A stretch of 44,668 nt of DNA from a virus, in the IMG/VR virus record IMGVR_UViG_3300012964_000016, positions 1-44,668 of that record; one strand, 5' to 3'. A model generated the notes under the pieces. It saw nothing but the letters and a program-made list of their open reading frames with translations, had not been told where the DNA came from and searched no databases. Within the stretch, counting starts at the first letter, position 1. Every line of letters begins with the position of its first letter. Shown here in pieces: positions 10,265-44,668 of the stretch. The translations under genes and the position numbers were made by a program.

Positions 10265-10731
10265 ATGGTATTCTCACCGCGAGTGGCTGCTTCATCCAGA
10301 AGCTGTGCGCTGCTTACAACAGCCTTCTCTATCGGACCGAGACCGAAGACAGGGTGATAGTCCTGCGTACTAGACCAGATCGTATCTCCGATGGCGGTTA
10401 TAGCAACACTACCAGAATCCGTCACCATATCAGCCTGTCCCATCTGCAGCGCGGTAATTCGTTCATCGAAGTAAGCGCGCAATAGTTTGACTTTATCAGG
10501 TTGTCGTGTCATCTGCGTCTGTATGAACACAGCATCGATGCACAGATCACGAGCTGTGTAATTGTTAGAACTGAACGGCACTGTGTACCTGGATGAAAGC
10601 TTGCTGTGTACAAGCGCTTCAGCCAGCCCGATAATTATATTCTGCGTCTGCGGACTGTTGCCGTTTGGCAGCTTGTCCAGTTCTGGATACCTGCCGTTGG
10701 TTATATCAGACCAATCAATGACGTTTCCCAT
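10261..10731 (-). CDS. Head-tail connector, Mu gp36 (DUF1320) type
   Basis: 156 residues, ATG with GGAGGT upstream, overlapping the glycosyltransferase stop by one base. It has the family layout: a helical protein with short N-terminal acidic segment, LDKLPNGNSPQTQNIIIGLAEALVHSKL (20-residue steps), YTVPFSSNNYTARDLCIDA and a final helical region. Family members are adaptor proteins under the portal. Order gp36-like, gpG-like, terminator, tube is that of Mu-related heads. Confidence 0.75.
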   Translation of the reverse strand: MGNVIDWSDITNGRYPELDKLPNGNSPQTQNIIIGLAEALVHSKLSSRYTVPFSSNNYTARDLCIDAVFIQTQMTRQPDKVKLLRAYFDERITALQMGQADMVTDSGSVAITAIGDTIWSSTQDYHPVFGLGPIEKAVVSSAQLLDEAATRGENTI

Positions 10732-13637
10732 TACAAATACCTCCTGTCAAGACTACCGATTTTTTCACGAGAGATGCCAACCACCAGTGAAAGTGCGTGG
10801 TCTACTGAAGCGAAATGTCCATGCACCATTGGCTGTGTAGATGCATCAGACTCACGCAGCACGCTACCGTCAACCTTGAAGCTGTAATCCACACCATCAC
10901 CGCGAAGCTGCACCAATTGCGAATAGTATGGCAGCGCGTCCACCGCCAGCCTATAATTCTTCGCTTCCAGAAGTTCCTGCCAGAGCATGATGCCTTCCGC
11001 GATTCTTTCGTCAAAGATTGACACGTTGACCGAACCTGCTTCAATGTCGTACTGGCAACTCTGCGCCAAATCTCGCAGCCACAAGAATTTTCCAAGCAGG
11101 CGTTCAGGCAATTCTGCACGATCACGTTTCAGCAGCGGAAGATTGCGGTTAAACCGTTTGCGACGCACCGTGTCGTCCACGTAACCGTGATGAACGATAG
11201 CCGTGTTCGGTAAAATGGAGACCGGACCAAGACCTTCATTTAGTACGATCTCAGGATGCTCGTGAACAGCACCGAAGAATTTTACGCCAATGCCATTGCG
11301 GAAAATGCGACACGGCATGTCGATTTTAATCACTGCCACCGGGTCATGACTAAAATGATGCTGCCTGATAGCCAGACCGTTATACATAGAATTGCGCAGA
11401 TACCGCTGAATTGTGTGACCATTGGTAAGCACTTCGTCCGCGTCTATCCACAGAATCCAGTCGCATGATGTACATGCAATAGTCTCGTTTCTAGCGGAGG
11501 AGAACCCCTGCACGACTGGCGACTGAATTGTAAATACGCGGAATGACACCAATGGGTTTTCGTTTTCAATCTGCTGTAAAATGAGTGCCGTGTTGTCTGT
11601 CGTGCTGCCATCCACGCCAATAACGACTTCTTGTACATACGGCAGCACGCTAGACAAGCAGCGCTTTATGTCTTGTTCGGCATCCTTTACAATCATGCAG
11701 CACGCCAGCGTCTGATCCGGCATTGTCTCGGCGACCTTTCTGCGATAGTCTATTTCCATGCTGCGGTGAGCCGGTTTTTTAAACGACAGAATGTAGCTAC
11801 CAAGCGCAGAACTGAACATAGATTGCCCGCTAGGGGCTGCTACGATCTTGTACTCCGGATGGTGTCCCAGCATTTCGACCAAGTCGCGGCGCTCAAAGTG
11901 ATGCAAATGTGCGCGCCAGTATCCGTGCTGGCGGTAGCCCTGCGACTCCCATGGTCCGTATGGCACCGTAATGACGATAATGCCTTCTGGTACCAGTTTA
12001 CCGGCCAGCGCATCAATAAACGCCTGCGGATTGCCCACATGCTCAACCACTTCAGCGGCAATTATAAGGTCAAAACCTCCGTGATCATTCACCACGCGTC
12101 CGTCGACCTTTTCAAAGCGAACGTTTCGCAACCCTTCCGCAGCCGCCCACGCACGAGCCTTCTCCACGTTGCTGTCGGATAAGTCTCTTCCAATAAAATT
12201 CAAAGAAGGAAAAGCTTTCGCAAGAGGAATAGTGTAGTGGCCGTGAGCGCAGCCATAATCAAGCACAGCAGCACCAGAACGCAGACTAGCAACATACCCA
12301 GCAACCGCCATAAAGCGACTAGTGCCTGTAACATCTTCAGGACCATAATTCACCCCCCTGTCTGCCTCGTACTTGTAGAATGCTTTGTAGTGTTCTTCGT
12401 ACGTGTCTTCTCGATAAAATGCATACGCGCGATCGTATTCTTCTGACAACTTTTTACAAAGACTGTCCACGCATGACCCACTTGAAAACACCTTCTCAAG
12501 CGCTACAATATCAGAATGGCGCATGAAGTGGTGCGCAATAGACGATGTTTTCGTAGCTGAGAACGTGTCCCGCACTACATCCAGTAAGCGATCAGCCACC
12601 TTCTCCCATGTATAGTCATTGGCTACTGTGCGCTGGTATGTACGGGGCGCGTCAGACAAGGTCTTTACGCGCGCAACGAATTCGTCAGTATTGACGGTAC
12701 CATCTTCATTCAGTGGTAGAACAGCACCGGCAGCAATTCCACAGGTCTCCGGAAGTGCGCCCACTGCACTGGTCAGCACCCAGCATCCGGCTGCCATAGC
12801 TTCCATCGCTGTGATGCAGGACACCTCTTCAAAGGTAGTGGGGTACAACCATGCATCACATGCTTTTTGCAGAGAGGCAAGTTCAGTCTTCGTCAGCGCG
12901 CCGTGCAGCGTAACATTTGACATTTCATCGCAACGATTCCACAGCATTTCGTATTGATCCTGCATCTGTGGTGTAGTGTTGTCGTAGTGGCATACGTGTA
13001 GATGCATGGGCGCTTCCCGCAATTTGTCCATGATGCCGTTAGGCTTCACCAATTCGAGCAACCCGCGCTCAGGGCGAGAAGAATAGAACAGATTGTATTT
13101 GTGCTGGTGCATCGCTTCGCGGGCTGGCTCAGCTCTATCGTACATATCCAGGTCAACGCCATTTCGGATTGCCTTGATTGATTCTTTGGGGATGCCGTAC
13201 ACCTTTGAAACTTGTTCCGCATGATATTCAGAAACGACCAGCACCTTATCAATGTTCCACATCTGGCCAAGAACGATTTCTTTATTGCGATACAGCGCCA
13301 GATCATGCAGCCACCACAGATTTATTTTACTGGCGTACTTGCGCTCAAACGCACGCGGATGACGCTGTATGATGCACACATCGTGCGGAGTATTTTCCGC
13401 ATAGTATGTGAAGCGATCTCCGAGTGGTGTATTTTCAGACTGTGCGCCAGCCCATTCGTACTTGACACCTTCAAAGATTCCGCCGATCTTGTCGTTGGTG
13501 AACAACGTTACTGAATGTCCGGCAGAAGTCAGTTCTTTCGCCAAATAATAGGCAGCGGACTCAGAACCGCCGAGCGATCTTGTCTTTATTGTATCGCCGT
13601 TAAATGGAATTCCGCCGCAGTGCATAACGATAAACAT
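10731..13637 (-). CDS. Three-domain glycosyltransferase / methyltransferase / glycosyltransferase
   Basis: 968 residues. Residues 1-360 are a GT4-like GT-B fold: GGSESAAYYLAKELTSAGHS at 23-42, NGVDLDMYDRAEP at 159-171, and an E-x7-E pair (E271, E279) in EEVSCITAMEAMAAG. Residues about 440-620 are a class I SAM methyltransferase: motif I VLDYGCAHGHY at 458-468, then IIAAEVVEHVGNPQAF and VITVPYGPWE. Residues about 643-968 are a GT2-type glycosyltransferase: CCMIVKDAEQDIKRCLSSV, DGSTTDNT and the DxD WIDADE at 730-735. The gene is in the capsid operon, with AAGGAG upstream. Likely role: building a sugar, perhaps methylated, on virion proteins (inference). Substrate is not deducible. Confidence 0.88.
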   Translation of the reverse strand: MFIVMHCGGIPFNGDTIKTRSLGGSESAAYYLAKELTSAGHSVTLFTNDKIGGIFEGVKYEWAGAQSENTPLGDRFTYYAENTPHDVCIIQRHPRAFERKYASKINLWWLHDLALYRNKEIVLGQMWNIDKVLVVSEYHAEQVSKVYGIPKESIKAIRNGVDLDMYDRAEPAREAMHQHKYNLFYSSRPERGLLELVKPNGIMDKLREAPMHLHVCHYDNTTPQMQDQYEMLWNRCDEMSNVTLHGALTKTELASLQKACDAWLYPTTFEEVSCITAMEAMAAGCWVLTSAVGALPETCGIAAGAVLPLNEDGTVNTDEFVARVKTLSDAPRTYQRTVANDYTWEKVADRLLDVVRDTFSATKTSSIAHHFMRHSDIVALEKVFSSGSCVDSLCKKLSEEYDRAYAFYREDTYEEHYKAFYKYEADRGVNYGPEDVTGTSRFMAVAGYVASLRSGAAVLDYGCAHGHYTIPLAKAFPSLNFIGRDLSDSNVEKARAWAAAEGLRNVRFEKVDGRVVNDHGGFDLIIAAEVVEHVGNPQAFIDALAGKLVPEGIIVITVPYGPWESQGYRQHGYWRAHLHHFERRDLVEMLGHHPEYKIVAAPSGQSMFSSALGSYILSFKKPAHRSMEIDYRRKVAETMPDQTLACCMIVKDAEQDIKRCLSSVLPYVQEVVIGVDGSTTDNTALILQQIENENPLVSFRVFTIQSPVVQGFSSARNETIACTSCDWILWIDADEVLTNGHTIQRYLRNSMYNGLAIRQHHFSHDPVAVIKIDMPCRIFRNGIGVKFFGAVHEHPEIVLNEGLGPVSILPNTAIVHHGYVDDTVRRKRFNRNLPLLKRDRAELPERLLGKFLWLRDLAQSCQYDIEAGSVNVSIFDERIAEGIMLWQELLEAKNYRLAVDALPYYSQLVQLRGDGVDYSFKVDGSVLRESDASTQPMVHGHFASVDHALSLVVGISREKIGSLDRRYL

Positions 13638-30134: not shown

Positions 30135-30224
30135 AGCATCTTCTAACGAGGATGCTTTGTGTGTCGCATTTTGCACTCGGTGCGCGAGGGCTACGAGAGA
30201 AGGCGCAGAGTGCGACACCCAAAG
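30135..30224 (+). promoter_or_regulatory. Structured leader before the DNA polymerase gene
   Basis: A 9-bp hairpin, AGCATCTTC/GAGGATGCT with a TAAC loop (30135-30156), is followed by TTTGTGTGT. A second dyad has 14-nt arms at 30155-30168 and 30211-30224, pairing at 13 of 14 positions around a 42-nt loop that itself contains GCACTCGGTGC. The arms share two bases with the first hairpin. The polymerase ribosome site (AAGGAG, about 30228) follows four bases later. Such layout suits attenuation, RNA processing or translation control. Confidence 0.5.
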
Positions 30225-30240
30225 ACAAAGGAGCCATATA

Positions 30241-32142
30241 GTGAAGATACCAGCCGTTGCAACCATAGACTTCGAAACACAACCCATCTACACGCGTCCA
30301 GACTACCCGCCCAAGCCGGTGGGGTTTAGCATTCTGCACGCTGGGGAGCGCAAATCAAAATATTACGCATGGGGCCACCCTGTGGGCAACAACTGCTCGT
30401 TCAAGGATGCGCGGCGCGTGCTGGCGGAGGTGTGGCGGTCTGGCGAGCTGCTGTTCCACCACAGCAAGTTTGACGTTGACGTGGCAGAGACGCACATGGG
30501 GATAAAGCCGGTAGACCCGCTGCTGATGCACGACACCATGTTTCTATTATTCCTCACAGACCCGCATGCGGAATCGTTATCACTCAAGCCCAGCGCGGAG
30601 CGCATACTGGGCATGAAGCCAGAGGAGCAGCGTAAGCTGGGAGAGTGGTTGGTGACGAACCAAGTGCGCCTTAAGGAAGAAGGGTTGTTGCCGCTGAGCG
30701 AGAAGATAACGATGTCCAACTTTGGCAAGTGGATTTGCCTCGGGCCTGGAGACGTGGTTGGTCAGTACGCAGACGGCGACGTGGTGCGTACGTACAAACT
30801 GTTCCGCAGGCTGTGGAAAGAGGTTGCAGAGCGCGACATGCTGGCAGCGTACCAGCGGGAACAAAAGTTGATGCCGATAATGCTGGACAACGAGCGCGTC
30901 GGTATGCTGTGCGACCACGCACGTCTGCGCAAGGAAGAGAAGTTGTACACAGCATCGCTGGAGACTGCGGACAACTGGCTGCGCAAGAAGTTGAAGTCGC
31001 CGGACTTGAATGTAGACAGTGATGCTGAGTTGGCGAAGGCGTTGGACTTGTCTGGTATGGTGACAGAGTGGACTAAGACAAAGACCGGCAAGAACAGCAC
31101 CAGCAAGAAGAACATGCGCCCCGAGCACTTTAAAGACCAGCGCGTGATCCAGACACTTATGTACCGCAACAAGCTGAGCACCTGCCTCGGCACATTCATG
31201 CGCCCGTGGCTGGCAACTGCGGAGCGCACTGGTGGGCGCATTCACACATCGTGGAACCAAGTGCGCCAGACGCACGGTCGGGAAAAGATTGCCGGTGCGC
31301 GCACAGGGCGTCTTTCTTCGTCGCCCAACTTTATGAACATCCCGACAGACCTTGAGGATAAGAACGACGGGTACGTACACCCGAGTCATATCATCGTGCC
31401 GGAGCTGCCTTTGCTGCGGAAGATTATTCTACCTGATGCGAAGAACCACTACTTCGGGCGGCGCGATTATAATCAGCAGGAGTTGCGCATCCTTGCGCAC
31501 TTTGAGGACGGTGCGCTGCTGGAGGCTTACCAGAACAACCCAGAACTGGACACACACGCGTTCGTGAAGGGTGTTATTGAAGAACTGCTCATGCGGGAGA
31601 TTGCGCGTAGCCCAGTTAAGACACTCAACTTCGGGTACATCTACGGTCAGGGCGTGCCAAGCATGGCGGAGAAGCTGGGGTTGCCGGTGCTGGAGATTAA
31701 GCAACTGCGCAACGCACAGTTGAAAGCGCTGCCTGGACTTAAGGACTTGAGCAACTCGTTGACGGCGCGTGCGCGTGAAGACTTGCCGATTCGCACGTGG
31801 GGTGGGCGCGAATACTTCTGCGAACCGCCTGCGTACTCTGAGAAGTTTGGTCGCATGGTTACGTTCGAATACAAACTGCTCAATTACTTGATTCAGGGTA
31901 GCGCGGCGGACGTGACCAAGGAAGCGATCATACGCTACCACGCGATGCCGAATCGTGAGGGGCGCATGTTGGTAACGGTGCACGATGAGATAGACATCAG
32001 CGCTGAGAAGGGTGTGTTCAAGGAAGAGATGTTGCGTCTGCGCGAAGCAATGCAGTCAATCGAGATGGATGTATTGATGTTGAGCGATGGTGAGTACGGC
32101 CCCAACTGGGGAACACTTAAAGACTTAAAGGAGAAGAGATGA
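30241..32142 (+). CDS. DNA polymerase, family A, with 3'-5' exonuclease
   Basis: 633 residues from a GTG at 30241 with AAGGAG 7 nt upstream; an upstream in-frame extension lies in the structured leader. Exonuclease motifs: TIDFETQ near residues 8-14, LLFHHSKFDVDV near 74-85, and YADGDVVRTY near 178-187. Polymerase motifs: A, RRDYNQQELRILAHFEDG; B, RSPVKTLNFGYIYGQG; C, VHDEID. No 5' nuclease domain. Motif B has Phe where T7 polymerase has Tyr, as in E. coli Pol I. It is the replicative polymerase, and must accept any modified thymidine triphosphates made by the downstream cluster. Confidence 0.95.
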   Translation: MKIPAVATIDFETQPIYTRPDYPPKPVGFSILHAGERKSKYYAWGHPVGNNCSFKDARRVLAEVWRSGELLFHHSKFDVDVAETHMGIKPVDPLLMHDTMFLLFLTDPHAESLSLKPSAERILGMKPEEQRKLGEWLVTNQVRLKEEGLLPLSEKITMSNFGKWICLGPGDVVGQYADGDVVRTYKLFRRLWKEVAERDMLAAYQREQKLMPIMLDNERVGMLCDHARLRKEEKLYTASLETADNWLRKKLKSPDLNVDSDAELAKALDLSGMVTEWTKTKTGKNSTSKKNMRPEHFKDQRVIQTLMYRNKLSTCLGTFMRPWLATAERTGGRIHTSWNQVRQTHGREKIAGARTGRLSSSPNFMNIPTDLEDKNDGYVHPSHIIVPELPLLRKIILPDAKNHYFGRRDYNQQELRILAHFEDGALLEAYQNNPELDTHAFVKGVIEELLMREIARSPVKTLNFGYIYGQGVPSMAEKLGLPVLEIKQLRNAQLKALPGLKDLSNSLTARAREDLPIRTWGGREYFCEPPAYSEKFGRMVTFEYKLLNYLIQGSAADVTKEAIIRYHAMPNREGRMLVTVHDEIDISAEKGVFKEEMLRLREAMQSIEMDVLMLSDGEYGPNWGTLKDLKEKR

Positions 32143-33181: not shown

Positions 33182-33538
33182 ATGAAGACAATAATAAGAT
33201 GGAAAATTGGCGGCGGCGGGTTCATAGGGGAAGTAAGTTTGTTTGAGTTGGGTGAGTACGATGATTATGTAGCGCGCAAGGCCGGCAGCGCGTGCGTGAT
33301 GCTGAGCAACCTGCACGTTCACCCGCTGCGCAGGGGGCGTGGCTGGGGGCGCATACTGGTAGAGACAGCACTGGCGCACGCACAGAAGAAAGGCTGGTGC
33401 GTGTTCATCCGCGTGGTGCCGTACAACGACAGCACGCTGGACGCTGCCGGTCTGACAGAGTTCTACAAGTCATTGGGGTTTAAGTCTATGCGACACGACA
33501 AGCGGGAGATGCTGTGGAAGCCTACGAAAGCGAAGTAG
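33182..33538 (+). CDS. GNAT-family acetyltransferase
   Basis: 118 residues, ATG with GAGG upstream. The acetyl-CoA motif is LHVHPLRRGRGWGRILVETA (44-63) with R51-x-x-G54-x-G56, and the C-terminal half has the usual FIRVVPYND and LTEFYKSLGFKSM. Small N-terminal region, so it is a compact single-domain GNAT. Substrate unknown. In a genome with probable hypermodified bases, acylation of a base amine is possible; Mu Mom is also of GNAT fold. Peptide or tRNA substrates are equally open. Confidence 0.85.
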   Translation: MKTIIRWKIGGGGFIGEVSLFELGEYDDYVARKAGSACVMLSNLHVHPLRRGRGWGRILVETALAHAQKKGWCVFIRVVPYNDSTLDAAGLTEFYKSLGFKSMRHDKREMLWKPTKAK

Positions 33539-35218: not shown

Positions 35219-35576
35219 GACGAAAGTTCTAAAAAAGATGAAAATAATGCTTGCCTTTTGCGACAACTAAGAAGATAATGGCTCCACGGTTGATAGGAAG
35301 TAGTCGCAGGTCAGTTAAAAGTCAAGCCCCTGATAGCTACCAACCAAACAACAAACGGTTCTGCAGTCCGGTACTCCCGTCGTGACGATGGCACACAGTA
35401 AAGATTCTCTGCAGAAGGGTGAAACCGCCTCGTCGCACTATATAGTGACATTGCGCAGCTAGACGTCAAGCTGGTGGCAGTGAATTCCAACAGTATCTTC
35501 GGCACCAACGGCGTGCGCATGCCGCTGAGGGTACTGTGGGAACCAATCCGGTTCGACCTATTATATGGAGCCAACC
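35219..35576. other. Intergenic region before the small-gene block
   Basis: 358 bases with no supported gene. It contains the candidate promoter at 35251-35279 and, at its right end, the first copy of the leader cassette with its ribosome site. The middle (35300-35480) shows no ORF with a ribosome site, no strong hairpin and no repeats that I can see. A short frame through the cassette exists but has no support. Confidence 0.55.
35251..35279 (+). promoter_or_regulatory. Candidate sigma-70 promoter with embedded TTGCGACAA
   Basis: TTGCCT (35251-35256), 17-bp spacer, GATAAT (35274-35279); 4 of 6 and 5 of 6 matches. TTGCGACAA at 35258-35266 fills the spacer, where a bound regulator would block RNA polymerase. 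It lies just after the helicase stop, ahead of the small-gene block. Confidence 0.5.
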
Positions 35577-35579
35577 ATG
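35497..35579 (+). repeat. Leader cassette copy 1 (carries ribosome site and start codon)
   Basis: Shares 51 bp with copy 2 (from CTTCGGCACCAACGG) and 72 bp, without mismatch, with copy 3. The shared 40-bp core runs ACGGCGTGCGCATGCC to GTGGGAACCAAT. The 3' part contains CCGGTTCGACC, TATTAT, GGAG and the ATG of the next gene. So expression signals are part of the repeat. Confidence 0.9.
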
Positions 35580-35819
35580 TCAAGAATAATTCACGCAGAC
35601 GACAAGCATACGAAGTCTTACAAAACATACGCACGCGCCACTCAAGAAGCAGAAGCTGTGATAGAACAGCTTGGATTGAAGTCAACGCTGGTGTTCATAA
35701 TGGCTGTAGAATCAGACGCGCGCAGTGAAGTGCGGTTCGCACCACTTTTCAATGTAGGGCAGCATGAGCAGCACTACCTCGCAGCACTGTCGCACAAAGG
35801 GCATATGGTTACATGCTAA
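35577..35819 (+). CDS. Small hypothetical protein under cassette copy 1
   Basis: 80 residues. Its ATG and GGAG ribosome site are supplied by the cassette. The sequence is helical then beta (TKSYKTYARATQEAEAVIEQ, STLVFIMAVESDARSEVRFA), with a C-terminal FNVGQHEQHYLAALSHKGHM. Unknown function; no family recognised. Confidence 0.65.
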   Translation: MSRIIHADDKHTKSYKTYARATQEAEAVIEQLGLKSTLVFIMAVESDARSEVRFAPLFNVGQHEQHYLAALSHKGHMVTC

Positions 35820-36400: not shown

Positions 36401-36551
36401 CAAAATCACAATCAGCACTTTGGAGCTTTTCCAACTTTTCCCGGACGCGGAATCTGCGCGGCTGTACCTTGAGGCTCGCTTGTGGCCTAACGGTTGCCGC
36501 TGCCCTGTCTGCGGCCTCAGCGACCGCATTACGGCGTGCGCATGCCGCTGA
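36393..36551 (+). pseudogene. Truncated zinc-ribbon protein of IS1595-transposase type
   Basis: 52 residues from an ATG with GGGAGAAA upstream. LFQLFPDAESARLYLEARLW, then PNGCRCPVCGLSDRI, matches the N-terminal zinc ribbon found at the front of IS1595/ISXO2-family transposases and in stand-alone phage proteins. The normal second CxxC and the following residues are missing. The reading frame runs into cassette copy 3, which supplies the last codons and the TGA. Only half of the metal site remains. It looks like a gene cut by cassette insertion or recombination. Confidence 0.7.
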
Positions 36552-36602
36552 GGGTACTGTGGGAACCAATCCGGTTCGACCTATTATATGGAGCCAACCA
36601 TG
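36531..36602 (+). repeat. Leader cassette copy 3 (carries ribosome site and start codon)
   Basis: 72 bp identical to 35508-35579. It begins inside the zinc-ribbon gene and ends at the ATG of the gene at 36600. Contains the TATTAT and GGAG elements. Confidence 0.9.
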
Positions 36603-36986
36603 GAATATCAAACCTTCAAACTTGCAACGACAGCCGAGCAGCGCCGCGCTCTGTGCGACGCTTACGGACTGTTCTTTAATTCTGATTCACTTCTTGCAAC
36701 ACTGGAAATCCCGGAGCTTATGTCTGCGTTCAGGATAGATCCAACTAACGGCGTACAGATAACATACGCGCAGGCGTGGCTGTTCGTAGACACTGACGTG
36801 GACAAAAAGTATTTCACACTTAATGTGTTGCTACTGAATGAAAGCCCAGAATGCGTCGTCAATCAGTGGGAACGTGCGCATTCTAGCTTCGACGAAGCTG
36901 TGGGTCTAATGTTTGACTTAGCCAACGCGGACAACGCTGTAGCTTTCTGGGACGTGGTTGCTACAACCATGACCAAAATCTGCTAA
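36600..36986 (+). CDS. Hypothetical protein (128 aa) under cassette copy 3
   Basis: ATG and GGAG come from the cassette. Sequence: MEYQTFKLATTAEQRRALCD at the start, a beta-containing centre with FVDTDVDKKYFTLNVLLLN, and a helical end. The stop is followed by an intact UUCG hairpin. No family recognised. Confidence 0.65.
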   Translation: MEYQTFKLATTAEQRRALCDAYGLFFNSDSLLATLEIPELMSAFRIDPTNGVQITYAQAWLFVDTDVDKKYFTLNVLLLNESPECVVNQWERAHSSFDEAVGLMFDLANADNAVAFWDVVATTMTKIC

Positions 36987-37257: not shown

Positions 37258-37457
37258 AAGCGAATACAGATAACCAACACAGTCGATTTACTGTGGTGCT
37301 GCCGAATCACCCACCGGTGGTAGTTACAACTGATTACGCAGTGACAGACAGTGGCAAGCTACCAACGGCCTACATTCGCGAATTGAAACAACATGTGCTT
37401 CGCTGTGAGAATGAACCGATAAAGAAGCGCTTCAAGTACGAGTACTATCCATCATGA
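37254..37457 (+). CDS. Hypothetical protein (67 aa)
   Basis: ATGA overlap with the preceding gene and with the following one. Beta then helical sequence (RFTVVLPNHPPVVVTTDYAV, AYIRELKQHVLRCENEPIKK) ending KYEYYPS. Function unknown; the overlaps support translation. Confidence 0.6.
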   Translation: MKANTDNQHSRFTVVLPNHPPVVVTTDYAVTDSGKLPTAYIRELKQHVLRCENEPIKKRFKYEYYPS

Positions 37458-38512
37458 GCGCCATCTGTGTATTCTACGACGAACACCGGCATTCATGCCT
37501 TCGCATCCACGAGACTGCCAGGAAGACATTCTTTATTGCAATGTTATGCGAAGGCATTTCAGTAAAGTCATCGGGCAGCGAGACTTTCCGCGAACGATGG
37601 CAGGCAGCCCCTGAAAAGAATGTTGTGGCGGCTGCCAGACTGTATCTGTATTCCAATGCCGCCAGATTCTTCATCTCCGACGAGGCACGTCACCACCTCG
37701 AGGAGATCATCGAAAACGGGACTACAACATTTAAGGAGATTGAGATGTCACAGCAGGAAAAGAAAAGTAATGTAGTTCAGACAACACCCGCAGCAACACA
37801 GCCAGTCGCAGCAGCCCGGCCTATCGCACCGCCAAACAGCGCAGCGAACGCCGCAGCAAAACCAGCAGCCCGGCCTATCGCACCGCCAAACAGCGCAGCG
37901 AACGCCGCAGCAAAACCAGCAGCACAGAAACCGCTCGACTTTGGCGGCGGCGTGGCGACGGTAATTGATCCAGCCGCAGGTACAGTGAAGTCTGTGGCTG
38001 TGGATGCAAAGCCAGCAGCAAAGCCAGCAGCAAAGCCAGCAGCAAAGCCAGCAGCAAAGCCAGCAGCAAAGCCAGCAGCAAAGCCAGCACATAAACAATC
38101 TAAGACAACTAAGGAGCCTGAAATGAAAACCACCACTAAACCAAAAGCAGCACCAGCAAAGCCAGCAGCAAAGCCAGCAGCAAAGCCAGCAGCAAAGCCA
38201 GCAGCAAAGCCAGCAGCAAAGCCAGCAGCAAAGCCAGCAGCAAAACCGACCGCCGCTGACAGGAAGGCCGCGAAGAAGGCATTCTTCGGCGGTGCTGCAC
38301 CAAAAGGTGCGAAACAACCTTCGAAGCCTGCTGTAAAGCCAACCGCAAAACCGACTGCGAAGAATGGCGCGGCCCAGAAGAGCAATTCCATTGACGGAAA
38401 ATTGGCTGAGTTGCGCAAGCTGCTCAAGGGTGGCGTGACTAACGTGCAAGAATTGGCCGACAACTTGCTCATCTGCAAGAAGAGCGTGCGTAAGCTGATG
38501 TCGCAGGTGTAG
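37454..38512 (+). CDS. Lys/Ala/Pro repeat protein with possible nested starts
   Basis: 352 residues as one frame. Residues 1-97 form a compact domain (CVFYDEHRHSCLRIHETARK, YLYSNAARFFISDEARHHLE). Then comes a disordered region: two 18-residue PIAPPNSAANAAAKPA repeats and two KPAA arrays. Residues 313-352 look like a winged-helix remnant (LKGGVTNVQELADNLLICKK). In-frame ATGs at 37745 and 38123 each have AAGGAG at ideal spacing, so shorter proteins of 255 and 129 residues may also be made. Histone H1-like, DNA-compacting activity is plausible from composition; it is not shown. Confidence 0.75.
   Translation: MSAICVFYDEHRHSCLRIHETARKTFFIAMLCEGISVKSSGSETFRERWQAAPEKNVVAAARLYLYSNAARFFISDEARHHLEEIIENGTTTFKEIEMSQQEKKSNVVQTTPAATQPVAAARPIAPPNSAANAAAKPAARPIAPPNSAANAAAKPAAQKPLDFGGGVATVIDPAAGTVKSVAVDAKPAAKPAAKPAAKPAAKPAAKPAAKPAHKQSKTTKEPEMKTTTKPKAAPAKPAAKPAAKPAAKPAAKPAAKPAAKPAAKPTAADRKAAKKAFFGGAAPKGAKQPSKPAVKPTAKPTAKNGAAQKSNSIDGKLAELRKLLKGGVTNVQELADNLLICKKSVRKLMSQV
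37811..37918 (+). repeat. Two tandem 54-bp units
   Basis: The segment starting GCAGCCCGGCCTATCGCACC at 37811 recurs at 37865 after 54 bp with no visible change. Each unit encodes 18 residues including PIAPPNSAANAAAKP. Perfect identity implies recent duplication or gene conversion. Confidence 0.9.
38006..38239 (+). repeat. Two arrays of seven 12-bp units (GCAAAGCCAGCA)
   Basis: Seven units at 38006-38089 and seven at 38156-38239, encoding KPAA-type repeats, separated by 66 bp that contain an internal ribosome site and ATG. Units are identical at base level, so slippage could change copy number in 4-residue steps without breaking frame. Confidence 0.92.
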
Positions 38513-38514
38513 TC

Positions 38515-39177
38515 GTGAGGGCGCAGTCGTTCGTCGGCACTCGCGCCAGTCTGCCGAAACCTACACAGGCAGACTGTTACGCATTTCCACACCACCAAGT
38601 CTATCTAGATGGTGGTGTTTTTCTACAAACCCGCAGCGGCCCTAACTGGGAAGGTGGTGTCATAACGCTAGCCACTTGCAAGCATCATCTTCGAACCACG
38701 CGCACACCGGAAGAATGGATAGGTGTGTGGTTCGCTGGATTCACCCCGAAAATCAACGGAGAAAACTATCTGTTGTATTTGGCAGAAGTTACGCAGGCGT
38801 TCGATTCAAACTATGCGCTCGGCCAACTACTGAAAGACAAGTATCCGAGGGCGTATGCTGTGAAGAACGCTGCTAACAATCCGCTGGGGGACGTATATCC
38901 GCCATCTGGATCGCTGCGCGGAGAACAAGTGTACTATAGACAGAACTTCTCTGCTTCTGCTGAGCATGTGCGTCAAGAGTTGAAGCATGGAGAACCCAAG
39001 TGGTATTCCGACATAGAATACATTGGACGCTCCGGTCGCAGACCTGCTGCGCTGGTGCTGCGTGGTTCTGTATTCAAAAGACCGACGTACAGAGCGCGCA
39101 GACCTCTGCATCGCAGCGGGTGGCGTTGCTCCCTGTCAGAATTGATCAACGCACACATAGAGGAGGTCGTATGGTAG
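38515..39177 (+). CDS. Nmad2-like nucleotide-modification-associated protein
   Basis: 220 residues, GTG start with AGGTG upstream, two bases after the preceding stop. The segment GGVITLATCKHHLRTTRTPE, EWIGVWFAGF, NYLLYLAEV and the later NPLGDVYPPSG and EQVYYRQNF follow the Nmad2 pattern I recall: G..TLA.CKP.+R......W+.G.G......L+YA..V, then D..YY. Nmad proteins were predicted, from gene neighbourhoods, to take part in phage base modification; their reaction is unknown. Its stop overlaps the kinase gene start. Family call moderate. Confidence 0.6.
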   Translation: MRAQSFVGTRASLPKPTQADCYAFPHHQVYLDGGVFLQTRSGPNWEGGVITLATCKHHLRTTRTPEEWIGVWFAGFTPKINGENYLLYLAEVTQAFDSNYALGQLLKDKYPRAYAVKNAANNPLGDVYPPSGSLRGEQVYYRQNFSASAEHVRQELKHGEPKWYSDIEYIGRSGRRPAALVLRGSVFKRPTYRARRPLHRSGWRCSLSELINAHIEEVVW

Positions 39178-39764
39178 TCGTCAAAATCGGTGGTACAAAC
39201 GGTAGCGGGAAGACTAGTGTCGCTAGAGCGTTGATAGAACAGTACGAACACAATCCCATCATGGGATCGAAGAAGATTGAAGCCTATAAAGTTTCAACCG
39301 AACTGCCGATGCCGGTGTATTTGTTGGGCAGCTATGTGAATGTGTGCGGCGGCATGGACGGCATATCTGACAAGCATGACAGACTTGCTTTGGTGCGTAA
39401 GTACGCAGTTCCAGGAAATATTGTCGTTTACGAAGGGTTAATCACTGGGAAAACATATGGGGCCATGGGTGCGATGAGTGAAGAGCCGCAGCAGCGCGGG
39501 TGCTGGTTGTACACCTTTATGGACACACCATACGAAGTTTGTGTTGGGCGCATACTGGACCGCCGAAGGGCGCGTGGAAACTACGCTCCCTTCGACCCAG
39601 AGCGAACCGTGCGCGCGACGTTTAACTCTTGTGTGAGTACAGCACGCAGGGCGGCGGCGGAAGGTCACGACGTGCTGATGCTAGACCACACGCAACCGCC
39701 GGAAAAGCAGTTATCTGTAATCATGCGGTCTGTGCGCAAAATTCTGAAAAGGAATCTAACATGA
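39171..39764 (+). CDS. P-loop kinase of the 5-hmdU DNA kinase type
   Basis: 197 residues from the ATG at 39171, with GAGGAGGT 3-6 nt upstream. Walker A is KIGGTNGSGKTSVARALIEQ at 5-24; later elements are YVNVCGGMDGISDKHDRL, VVYEGLITGKTYGAMG and FMDTPYEVCVGRILDRRRAR. The CGGMDGIS and EGL segments are those I associate with phage kinases that phosphorylate 5-hydroxymethyl-dU in DNA. It is coupled by ATGA to the helical-partner gene. Role: activate the hydroxymethyl group for later substitution. Confidence 0.75.
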   Translation: MVVVKIGGTNGSGKTSVARALIEQYEHNPIMGSKKIEAYKVSTELPMPVYLLGSYVNVCGGMDGISDKHDRLALVRKYAVPGNIVVYEGLITGKTYGAMGAMSEEPQQRGCWLYTFMDTPYEVCVGRILDRRRARGNYAPFDPERTVRATFNSCVSTARRAAAEGHDVLMLDHTQPPEKQLSVIMRSVRKILKRNLT

Positions 39765-40582
39765 AGACAAGATACATAGCAACATTCATTCGTGCTCGCG
39801 AAGATATCCGCATCAGACGCGCAGACGGACAGCCCAAGCCGTGGACAGCAGATCCGATCTTGCAGAATTATCGGTTCTGTAACGTGCATCGTGAAAACGA
39901 TACTGTGACCAAGTGGATATCAGAGAACTGGCGCGGCCCGCACAGCGAAGACCCTAACCTGTGGTTCGCGATGGTGGTGGCGCGGTTGGTTAACAAGCCG
40001 TCAACGCTGGCGGCGCTTGGGTACCCGGTGCCGTGGAATGCGAAGAAGTTTGTGCGCGTCATTCACAAGGTAATGAGCACAGGGTCAGCATTCAGTCCAG
40101 CGTACATCGTTTCAACCAATGGTTGCGCACAGGACAAGGCTGAGTATCTTGCGGAACACGTGCTGACTCCACTGTGGGTGTATCGCAAACAGCTTACTCC
40201 GATAGAGGGCGACACGCTGGCAACATTCCACGCTCGGCTGATGAAGTGCAACGGTCTTGGAAGTTTCATGGCGGCGCAGGTGGTGGCGGATATGAAGTAC
40301 GTGCCGCCGTTGTTGTACGCCACAGACTGGGATTCGTGGGCGGCGTCGGGTCCAGGAAGCAAGCGTGGCCTGAACCGCGTGTGTGGCAGACCTGTGAACG
40401 CTCAGTGGAAGGAATCTGCGTGGCACAACACACTGACAGAACTGCGCGTGGACTTGCTGGTGGAGTGCGGCATCAAGCTGCATGCGCAGGACGTTCAGAA
40501 CTGCTTGTGTGAGTTTGACAAGTATGAGCGCGTGCGACTGGGGAAAGGTAGACCCAAGCAGCGATATGATGGAGGTGCGTGA
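39761..40582 (+). CDS. 5-hmdU DNA kinase-associated helical protein (glycosylase-like fold)
   Basis: 273 residues, ATGA-coupled with AAAAGG upstream. Conserved-looking segments: PWTADPILQNYRFCNVHREN at 26-45, TVTKWISENW, LVNKPSTLAALG, the HhH-like LMKCNGLGSFMAAQVVADMK, then DWDSWAASGPGSKRGLNRV, and DVQNCLCEFDKYERVRLGKG. This matches the helical family found fused or adjacent to 5-hmdU DNA kinases (also described as alpha-glutamyl/putrescinyl thymine pyrophosphorylase-related). It probably acts on the phosphorylated base in DNA. The exact chemistry is not settled by sequence. Confidence 0.75.
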   Translation: MKTRYIATFIRAREDIRIRRADGQPKPWTADPILQNYRFCNVHRENDTVTKWISENWRGPHSEDPNLWFAMVVARLVNKPSTLAALGYPVPWNAKKFVRVIHKVMSTGSAFSPAYIVSTNGCAQDKAEYLAEHVLTPLWVYRKQLTPIEGDTLATFHARLMKCNGLGSFMAAQVVADMKYVPPLLYATDWDSWAASGPGSKRGLNRVCGRPVNAQWKESAWHNTLTELRVDLLVECGIKLHAQDVQNCLCEFDKYERVRLGKGRPKQRYDGGA

Positions 40583-40860
40583 TGACCATCAACAGAATAA
40601 AGATTGAAGACATTAAATTCAACAGCATCTACACATGCTGTGACTGTAAGAAGACAGCGGTGGGGTCGACGCAATACGCAGCGTTTGACGGACACGGTAT
40701 CCAGAAGCTCGACGCGTTTCTTCTCAAGCTGCGTCCAACCGCGCACGCTATGCCGATCGGCTGGGCAAGCTACTACCGCGACGGTGGCGGCACGGTTTAC
40801 AATTGCGGGTGCAGAGAACTATCAACACAACAAGGAGCCAGTGATGGAAATCAAAGTTAG
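40582..40860 (+). CDS. Cysteine-rich small protein in the modification cluster
   Basis: 92 residues, ATG overlapping the previous stop (TGATG) with GGAGG 6 nt upstream. CCDCKK at about 18-23 and NCGCREL at about 74-80 make a plausible Cys4 metal site. A helical LDAFLLKLRPTAHAMPIGWA lies between. The last 17 bp overlap the thymidylate synthase gene. Unknown function; the location suggests an accessory. Confidence 0.65.
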   Translation: MTINRIKIEDIKFNSIYTCCDCKKTAVGSTQYAAFDGHGIQKLDAFLLKLRPTAHAMPIGWASYYRDGGGTVYNCGCRELSTQQGASDGNQS

Positions 40861-41872
40861 AAACGTCAACCATGCTTTGGAGGAGATACTATGGAAGTTC
40901 AAAACCTCCGGAGTACTGGTCAATTCTCGTAATGGCGCGGTGCTGCGCATCCCAGAACCGGTACTAACCACATACACGCACCCGACAGAGCGCGTGCTGT
41001 TCTCACAATTACGCGACGCCAACCCGTTCTTCCACCTGTTCGAAGCGTTGTGGATGCTGGGCGGGTATAACGAAGTAGACTTCCCGGCACGGTTTGCAAA
41101 GCAGATAGCTGCCTATTCAGATGACGCGGTTACTCTCAACGGCGCGTATGGCTACCGCTGGCGGCACCACTTCGGGCATGACCAGATTAAAGCAGCGCTC
41201 AAAGAACTACGCGCACAGAATACGCGTCGCGCTGTGATTGCCATGTGGGATGGGATTGAAGATCTTCAGTCAGCCGCTCACGGTTCGCTGGATGTGCCAT
41301 GTAATACGCATATCTATTTCGACAGACCGACCGGCGCACTGGACATGACCGTGTGCTGCCGCAGCAATGACGCTGTCTGGGGCGCTTACGGTGCAAATGC
41401 TGTGCACTTCTCTGTTCTTCAGCAATACATGGCAGAAGTGTTGGGTGTGCCGGTGGGGGTGTACAGGCAGTTCAGCAATAATATGCACATCTATGCTGAT
41501 AGGCCAGATGTTGTCAGACTTCTGGATTCTGATGGTGTGAGGTATGTGGCCGACGACCGGTATACACAAGGGCATGAAGCATTGTCTCCAGACATCCAAC
41601 ACACACGACTGATACAACCACAAGAATCCGCGCTGGCATTCCTGGCAGATATTCACAGGCTCGTGTGGCGTACTGGCGAAGATTGCAAATACGCCACAGA
41701 ATTTTTCGCAGAAACTGTATCCCCAATGCAGAAAGCACATGCACAATATAAATCCGGTCTGTGTGAGTGTGCGCGCAATACTGCGTGCGAAATAGCCGCG
41801 CAGGACTGGATGATGGCCTGCGTAGACTGGCTGGACAGAAGGGAGGTTGCACGCGATGCGAAGAAAACTTGA
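40844..41872 (+). CDS. Thymidylate-synthase-family enzyme, probable dUMP hydroxymethyltransferase
   Basis: 342 residues from the ATG at 40844 with AAGGAG 6 nt upstream. Folate-dependent pyrimidine methylase features: active-site Cys153 in LDVPCNTHIYF, CCRSNDAVWGAYGANAVHFS (171-190), and the late QFSNNMHIY (209-217). The Asn in GAN suggests a uracil nucleotide substrate, since dCMP hydroxymethylases have Asp at the equivalent place (family knowledge; alignment by eye). Sequence is far from cellular ThyA. Beside a 5-hmdU DNA kinase, hydroxymethyl-dUMP is the likely product. Ordinary dTMP synthesis is the alternative. Confidence 0.82.
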   Translation: MEIKVRNVNHALEEILWKFKTSGVLVNSRNGAVLRIPEPVLTTYTHPTERVLFSQLRDANPFFHLFEALWMLGGYNEVDFPARFAKQIAAYSDDAVTLNGAYGYRWRHHFGHDQIKAALKELRAQNTRRAVIAMWDGIEDLQSAAHGSLDVPCNTHIYFDRPTGALDMTVCCRSNDAVWGAYGANAVHFSVLQQYMAEVLGVPVGVYRQFSNNMHIYADRPDVVRLLDSDGVRYVADDRYTQGHEALSPDIQHTRLIQPQESALAFLADIHRLVWRTGEDCKYATEFFAETVSPMQKAHAQYKSGLCECARNTACEIAAQDWMMACVDWLDRREVARDAKKT

Positions 41873-42362
41873 ATTGATTGTAAGTGGTGGTGGCGTTAAG
41901 CGCTGGCATGTGCAGCGCACATTGAAGGAGCAGTCAGTGGCCGAGCACAGCTTCGGAGTGGCGTGGCTGGTGTGGTTTATTACCGATGGTCGTGCCAGCG
42001 TCAATCTGATAATGCACGCGCTGGCACACGATGTAGCTGAATACATCACCGGTGATGTGCCTGCACCAGCGAAGCGCAGCATGGGCATATCGCACCTGTT
42101 CGACATAGAGGAAGAAGCCGTGTGGGCGGATCATGGCCTGTACCTGCCCAATCTGACGAAGGAAGAGTTGCGTACACTTAAATTCGCAGATGTTTGTGAA
42201 TTGTTGCTGTTCTGCGTGCGCGAAATTTCTTTAGGTAATAAAAATATGGTCGAGGTGTATTCTCGCGGAGTGGGCTACTTGTTGCAGCATTCTCCGTGGA
42301 ATGATCTGGAAGCCAAGTTGATGACTGTTATAGGAGAGCGTTATGGACAAGCGTGCAAATGA
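41856..42362 (+). CDS. HD-domain nucleotidase (YfbR-like)
   Basis: 168 residues from the ATG at 41856, with GGGAGG upstream; it overlaps the thymidylate synthase gene by 17 bp. The motifs KRWHVQ, AEHSFGVAW (H31), MHALAHDVAEYITGD (H58, D59) and LKFADVCELL give the HD metal site in the YfbR order. YfbR enzymes dephosphorylate dNMPs. Here it could lower competing dTMP or dCMP so that the modified nucleotide is favoured (inference). Confidence 0.85.
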   Translation: MRRKLELIVSGGGVKRWHVQRTLKEQSVAEHSFGVAWLVWFITDGRASVNLIMHALAHDVAEYITGDVPAPAKRSMGISHLFDIEEEAVWADHGLYLPNLTKEELRTLKFADVCELLLFCVREISLGNKNMVEVYSRGVGYLLQHSPWNDLEAKLMTVIGERYGQACK

Positions 42363-42738
42363 TATTCAAGTTGCTGGGGATCACTACAGAAGCCCGGCGC
42401 AGCATTGGGATTTTGCGGTCACGCATTATGGGGTTGCATACCTGACCAGTCAGGTGACCAACTACGTGGCTCGATGGCGTGCGAAGAACGGCATGGAAGA
42501 TTTGCACAAGGCGCTACACTACCTCATGAAGCTGGAAGAAGTCCTTGCAAATCCAGACGGCAATCGCGTAACACTGGATGAGTTCTGCAAGGTAAACAAT
42601 CTTCTGCCGGAAGAATGTGAGGTGCTGTCTATAATGACCAGCGCAGACATCACGCCAGAACTGGTACAGCAGGCGCGGAGAGCAATTCAATCGTTGCTTG
42701 CCGCAGAACCATCAACATCCTATGTGAGCCAATCATGA
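42343..42738 (+). CDS. DUF3310-type protein
   Basis: 131 residues, ATG with AGGAG upstream, overlapping the HD gene by 20 bp. VAGDHYRSPAQHWDFAVTHY and GVAYLTSQVTNYVARWRAKN, then GMEDLHKALHYLMKLEEVL, match DUF3310, widespread in phages beside nucleotide-metabolism genes. C-terminal extension helical. Function unsettled. Confidence 0.82.
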   Translation: MDKRANDIQVAGDHYRSPAQHWDFAVTHYGVAYLTSQVTNYVARWRAKNGMEDLHKALHYLMKLEEVLANPDGNRVTLDEFCKVNNLLPEECEVLSIMTSADITPELVQQARRAIQSLLAAEPSTSYVSQS

Positions 42739-44479: not shown

Positions 44480-44571
44480 ATGCCGTTATGCTACGGGAGC
44501 GATGGTCGCGGTCGCGGTCGCGGTCGGGGTCGTGGTCGGGGTCGCGGTCGTGGTCGAGGTCGCGGTCGTAG
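44476..44571 (+). CDS. Short Ser/Arg/Trp dipeptide-repeat protein at the window end
   Basis: ATG with AAGGAG 6-7 nt upstream, ATGA-coupled. Begins MNAVMLRERW and then alternates Ser with Arg, Gly or Trp for about 21 residues, 31 in all, to a TAG. The codon pattern is a hexamer TCG-NGG. The stop may be real or a sequencing error within the repeat, so the true length is uncertain. Coupling to the previous gene supports translation. Confidence 0.55.
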   Translation: MNAVMLRERWSRSRSRSGSWSGSRSWSRSRS

Positions 44572-44668
44572 TCGAGGGCGCGGTCAGGCGTGCGAGCGGG
44601 TGCGCGGACGAGGTCGGGAACGGGGGCGGGGAGGGGGGCGTGGGGAAAACCTTGAACGCGTTGGGGGA
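44506..44668 (+). repeat. Hexamer repeat tract degenerating to G-rich end
   Basis: TCGCGG-type hexamers run from 44506 to about 44575, then decay into G-rich sequence with long G runs to the window end. Strong G strand bias (few A or T). Likely a slippage-prone tandem repeat or an assembly end with poor consensus. Confidence 0.75.

Follow-up and report, generated by a model that had tools for sequence, protein, structure and literature searches.

In the published route to hypermodified thymine, 5-hydroxymethyldeoxyuridine (5-hmdU) is acted on in turn by a kinase, a transferase and tailoring enzymes. The virus record IMGVR_UViG_3300012964_000016 (44,668 bases, called the window below) carries at positions 38515–42362, the region studied here, a cassette that includes a probable 5-hmdU DNA kinase gene and in which no amino acid:DNA transferase gene was found. 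The question that it raises is which base the phage's DNA would finally carry. We judge the chances about even that this is a 5-hmdU-type thymine-modification cassette that ends at the phosphorylated base. Labels such as L027 denote related loci or records that were compared with the window.

Enzymes of the cassette

The cassette is an operon of six plus-strand genes, and neighbors overlap by 4–17 bases at each internal junction. The initial annotation had described five coupled genes; the coupling stands, but the number does not, as a gene at 40579–40860 had been overlooked. When Pfam profiles were run against the products, the parts fell into the families expected, with the kinase and the Nmad2-like protein below their own cut-offs, and all the motifs cited in that annotation were found in the kinase, the thymidylate-synthase-family enzyme (TS) and the HMUDK_hel / aGPT-PPlase1 protein (HEL).

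The P-loop protein (39171–39764, 197 amino acids [aa]), described earlier as 5-hmdU DNA kinase-like, starts with the ATG at 39171 and shares an ATGA overlap with the start of HEL; a longer open reading frame (ORF) from 39000 was ruled out as its gene. It contains the Walker A motif GGTNGSGKTS (residue 7), CGGMDGIS (59), YEGL (87) and also DTP. The kinases of L070 and L071, 54% and 53% identical to it, reach 32.3 and 28.1 bits against the HMUDK profile PF18748, above the cut-off of 27, and an alignment contains 13 invariant columns common to the window protein, gp54 of Pseudomonas phage M6 and gp49 of Pseudomonas phage PaMx11. Because of these homologs and shared residues we take it to be a probable 5-hmdU DNA kinase, in agreement with the earlier description. 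Single-sequence scans gave nothing for kinase and Nmad2 relatives, which were found by alignment-based scans. The best PHROG match of the window kinase is named “terminase small subunit”, and M6 gp54 and PaMx11 gp49 carry the same label; the label (phrog_800) is wrong, and it is widespread for 5-hmdU DNA kinases in phage records, gp15 of phage P26218 being another example.

HEL (39761–40582, 273 aa) scores 142.6 bits against PF18723 (cut-off 25) and has the segments PWTADPIL (residue 27), FCNV (39) and GPGSKRGL (197). Its stop is overlapped by the 93-aa ORF at 40579–40860, which also overlaps the TS start and encodes a cysteine cluster (CCDCKK, CGC); Pfam and PHROG searches with this ORF gave no match.

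The TS-family assignment of 40844–41872 (342 aa) is secure, with 56.6 bits against PF00303 (cut-off 24.3), 347 bits against phrog_5131 and an E-value of 7e-78 with M6 gp58. Both Cys153 and a uracil-type Asn185 (GAN) are present, as had been noted, and this Asn is kept in every relative's TS that was legible to the motif scan, in kinase and glycosyltransferase classes alike. Judged from its sequence, the enzyme is probably a dUMP hydroxymethylase rather than a methylase. The last gene (41856–42362, 168 aa; ATG preceded by GGAGG) encodes the HD nucleotidase (HD) recognized earlier, now placed as a YfbR-like 5′-deoxynucleotidase by 53.4 bits against PF12917 (cut-off 25.9) and homologous to M6 gp59.

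The first gene (38515–39177, 220 aa) was called Nmad2-like. The resemblance to PF18753 exists but is weak (E 4.2e-5, covering residues 41–114 only), and its 23.6 bits miss the curated Nmad2 cut-off of 26.1. Its sole IMG/VR homolog, L027:1827–2504, is 48% identical and likewise lies directly upstream of a 5-hmdU kinase gene; a search for homologs in cultured phages found none. The gene is a rare accessory, confined to the window and L027.

Transferase and tailoring genes

Phage PaMx11 has kinase (gp49), HEL (gp50), TS (gp51) and HD (gp52) genes homologous to those of the window and in identical order. Upstream of its kinase lie a transferase (gp46), a flavin adenine dinucleotide (FAD) enzyme (gp47) and an acetyltransferase (gp48), whereas the window has the Nmad2-like gene there. 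PaMx11 gp46 was solved under the PDB title “5-phosphomethyl-2′-deoxyuridine (5-PmdU) glycinyltransferase” (8z2m/8z2n), and 5-PmdU is thus its substrate. Phage M6, which makes 5-(2-aminoethyl)-dU, also has homologs of the four window genes in the same order (kinase gp54, HEL gp55, TS gp58 and HD gp59), but its additional genes, the PF18724 transferase gp51, the pyridoxal-phosphate (PLP) enzyme gp52, the radical S-adenosylmethionine (SAM) protein gp53 and Nmad5 gp56, were not found in the window. The SN1 phage paper lists the M6 set as hydroxymethylase, Nmad5, aGPT-Pplase1, kinase, radical SAM protein, PLP enzyme and aGPT-Pplase2 (PMC9476957).

The initial annotation had recognized no radical SAM, PLP or amino-acid-transferase gene, and profile searches bear this out. 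The PF18724 profile found no transferase in the window (E 0.1), nor any in the related records with kinase and HEL (11 long or medium and two short), and it found five of five controls. A profile of 13 diverse transferases (A6) also found none in the window (E 0.1) or in the same records; it recovered six of six controls at E <1e-79, the controls' own sequences being inside the profile. A radical SAM profile search of the window gave no match, and PLP and FAD families were absent among the window genes scanned, some small structural ORFs lying outside that scan. A PF18746 search matched nothing anywhere and so is uninformative.

Of 100 loci with both kinase and HEL, a transferase accompanies 68; the other 32 lack one nearby, and several of these are cut off upstream. 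These counts come from both profiles; with the first alone, the lack of a transferase in kinase loci had seemed near-universal, a result overturned once a cluster conserved upstream was recognized as a divergent member of PF18724. The kinase gene directly abuts the SNF2 helicase gene in L011 and L093, and so the smallest cassette is kinase–HEL–TS–HD; in L139 a 74-aa ORF alone lies between the two. It follows that a real sub-group of phages has only the opening half of the known pathway.

Cultured phages were also considered. Rhodoferax phage P26218 was ruled out as a transferase-less model, as its gp14 is a transferase. Microbacterium phage BouleyBill (L170:1357–2830) has HEL beside a P-loop protein, together with TS, and no transferase in its complete genome; its P-loop protein was ruled out as an HMUDK kinase, the family being Ploopntkinase3. 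A different arrangement occurs at L068:6657–8534, where an amino acid:DNA transferase is fused to a glutamine-amidotransferase-like domain.

HEL and its changing partners

HEL had been called the helical partner of the kinase. Its membership in the HMUDK_hel family holds, but it is not a dedicated kinase partner, because the same family adjoins glycosyltransferases in related phages. In 80 IMG/VR neighborhoods taken with the window HEL as the starting point, TS and HD are steady neighbors in most loci and the gene upstream of HEL varies; by locus it encodes a kinase, a TET-associated glycosyltransferase (TAGT; PF20691) or another glycosyltransferase-like protein, and some loci also have a radical SAM/SPASM protein. 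Pfam support is limited to the TAGT and radical SAM proteins and, weakly, cluster 23; clusters 21, 41 and 44 are called glycosyltransferase-like from sequence. The kinase is present in 21 of the 62 loci with HEL and TS, the glycosyltransferase clusters in 40 and both in none, counts that are not independent because some loci are near-duplicates. A tree of 69 HEL proteins requires at least 12 partner changes (shuffled labels give a mean of 17.5 and a minimum of 12), and small well-supported clades have mixed partners (L064/L070, L014+L022/L026 and L018/L071). The cultured phage P26218 (L167) has kinase, transferase, TS and HD genes and no HEL, which makes it a natural case in which the need for HEL could be judged.

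Uncultured-phage cassettes such as L018, L012, L066 and L015 share with the window HEL, an Asn-type TS where readable, HD and a SNF2 helicase neighbor, but in place of the kinase they have TAGT or GT-B-like glycosyltransferases, to which some add a radical SAM protein. Since both classes retain the TS Asn wherever it is readable, kinase- and glycosyltransferase-type cassettes alike appear to start from hydroxymethyl-dUMP. A partial precedent for this neighborhood is the pelagiphage report of one region with TS, aG/PT-PPlase1, a nucleotidase and a putative glycosyltransferase (PMC9599517). Where the kinase gives way to glycosyltransferases plus radical SAM/SPASM proteins beside HEL–TS–HD, as in L015, L009, L023, L062 and others, the base could be a glycosylated hydroxymethyluracil altered further by radical chemistry. 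In another HEL clade, on large contigs of up to 463 kb (L006, L048, L081, L034 and L040), HEL has neither TS nor kinase nor glycosyltransferase within 7 kb and may work alone.

An AlphaFold2 model of HEL has a mean pLDDT of 95.6, and the top Foldseek ranks for it are 8-oxoG and AlkA glycosylases and PaMx11 gp46, at E 0.13 or worse and query TM-scores of ~0.34–0.42. A GxG hairpin at residues 165–167 and the invariant D189 fit the HhH-GPD pattern; a sequence-profile search of HEL against solved glycosylases gave no match. Because the Foldseek E-values are weak, a helix-hairpin-helix DNA-glycosylase-like fold is only a lead from the model. We propose that HEL binds 5-hmdU, or extrudes it, on behalf of whichever finishing enzyme is present. 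The larger proposal, which joins a phage group whose finished base is the negatively charged 5-phosphomethyl-dU to a HEL that acts as a general 5-hmdU-presenting, glycosylase-fold module swapped between kinases and glycosyltransferases, one hydroxymethyluracil backbone serving interchangeable finishing enzymes, we regard as rather doubtful.

Proposed pathway and its alternatives

By homology to characterized systems, the TS-family enzyme would turn dUMP into 5-hydroxymethyl-dUMP, the HD nucleotidase would lower the competing dTMP pool, the phage family A DNA polymerase (30157–32142, plus strand; 180.7 bits against PF00476) would incorporate 5-hmdU from 5-hmdUTP, and the P-loop kinase would phosphorylate 5-hmdU in DNA to 5-phosphomethyl-dU as HEL binds or flips the base; the Nmad2-like protein would be an accessory. 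From the genes, it is very likely that a 5-hmdU route is used and likely that 5-hmdU is phosphorylated in DNA. With no gene for an amino acid:DNA transferase, the modification most likely ends at the phosphorylated base (5-phosphomethyl-dU or its pyrophosphate); this last step, suggested by gene absence, we hold tentatively, at a little short of an even chance. Phage phiW-14, which makes alpha-putrescinylthymine via HmPPUra, shares the initial formation of hydroxymethyl-dUMP and the phosphorylated base made in DNA, but it swaps the phosphate for putrescine, a step for which the window has no recognized enzyme. Cells infected with phiW-14 are without dTTP owing to a dTTPase (PMC5977210). The pyrophosphorylated base builds up in the DNA of a phiW-14 amber mutant, and so a phosphorylated-type base can persist in DNA.

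Several points weigh against an end at the phosphorylated base. The window kinase itself scores 14.2 bits against PF18748, where the cut-off is 27. The record is linear and its completeness was not estimated, which limits every absence claim; its 44.7 kb matches same-cassette relatives (longest 41–50 kb). To our knowledge the characterized kinase systems all proceed to a substituted base, carrying amines or amino acids, and an unrelated or unrecognized transferase, or the host, could complete the reaction here.

Such full hypermodification, in which the Nmad2-like protein, the 93-aa ORF product, some other gene product or a host enzyme makes an amino- or otherwise substituted thymine, would suit the 68 loci that have a transferase, some of them divergent enough to escape the first profile, and the several window genes that belong to no known family. 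We nevertheless consider it unlikely, as no further enzyme family was seen common to the transferase-less loci, in some of which no further gene separates the kinase from the helicase, and the Nmad2-like gene occurs in just two of them. HEL itself might be the transferase in these phages, given its fold likeness to PaMx11 gp46 (8z2n; Foldseek prob 0.89, E 0.24) and an exchange seen in cultured phages, P26218 having kinase and transferase without HEL. However, HEL and a transferase co-occur in M6, PaMx11 and Pam3, HEL also accompanies glycosyltransferases without a kinase, where no phosphate leaving group is expected, and profile–profile similarity between HEL and the transferases is limited to a 27-residue hairpin, which together make this role distinctly improbable.

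It is still less probable that the P-loop protein phosphorylates nucleotides (for example, as an hmdUMP kinase) and that the DNA stops at 5-hmdU. Phages with plain 5-hmdU are well documented, and the protein weakly matches the thymidylate-kinase-like phrog_761, but among named proteins its nearest relatives are the M6 and PaMx11 5-hmdU DNA kinases, and the purified M6 enzyme reportedly phosphorylates 5-hmdU in DNA (unpublished result cited in PMC6449724). Final glycosylation by the glycosyltransferase–methyltransferase–glycosyltransferase protein encoded at 10731–13637 would parallel the related HEL–TS cassettes that bear glycosyltransferases in place of the kinase. This fusion gene, however, lies on the other strand among virion genes, 25 kb away, and was not found in 24 related records, and a TAGT search of the window found none; we think it extremely unlikely to finish the base.

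The 968-aa product of 10731–13637 (minus strand) is itself unusual in its makeup, with a GT4-type glycosyltransferase, a methyltransferase and a GT2-type glycosyltransferase. The strand opposite to the cassette holds the genes for terminase, portal, head protease, major head, tail tube and tape measure, and the polymerase, a PDDEXK exonuclease, the SNF2 helicase and a primase/helicase-like protein are encoded on the same strand; since replication and virion genes are both present, the record looks close to a whole genome. A near-identity search among phage records gave no match to the window. Directly upstream of the cassette, 37454–38512 (plus) encodes a Lys/Ala/Pro-repeat protein whose repeats include long PAAKPAAK runs. 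BLAST clustering groups it (cluster 7) with Lys/Ala-rich proteins found at this position upstream of many HEL loci; their homology is uncertain because of low complexity. Cluster 7 was at first read as Nmad2, a reading dropped because it is this Lys/Ala-rich protein. Downstream, the gene at 42343–42738 (plus), which overlaps the HD gene, encodes a DUF3310-like protein (PF11753, E 5e-4, below cut-off), and many relatives have such a gene after HD as a conserved downstream cluster.

A GNAT acetyltransferase gene (33182–33538, plus) lies beside the exonuclease gene; a scan of the first 86 loci gave it a sole relative, in L080 (2191–2643), a locus with a full kinase/transferase cassette, and PaMx11 also has a GNAT, inside its cassette. 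The stretch GVRMPLRVLWEPIRFDLLYGANH is common to the short ORFs 35474–35725 and 36494–36676 (plus) and points to a direct repeat ~1 kb apart, and the extreme end of the record (44490–44668) consists of low-complexity GGTCGCGGTCG repeats that may be an assembly artifact.

The exchange of partners gives the HEL family a testable role, and its present names (pyrophosphorylase, kinase helical domain) misfit its gene neighborhoods. If the cassette does end at the phosphorylated base, the known chemistry of phage DNA would gain an anionic base from a lineage that goes no further than the phosphate. Such a lineage would also supply, from nature, the 5-PmdU DNA on which the solved glycinyltransferase acts.

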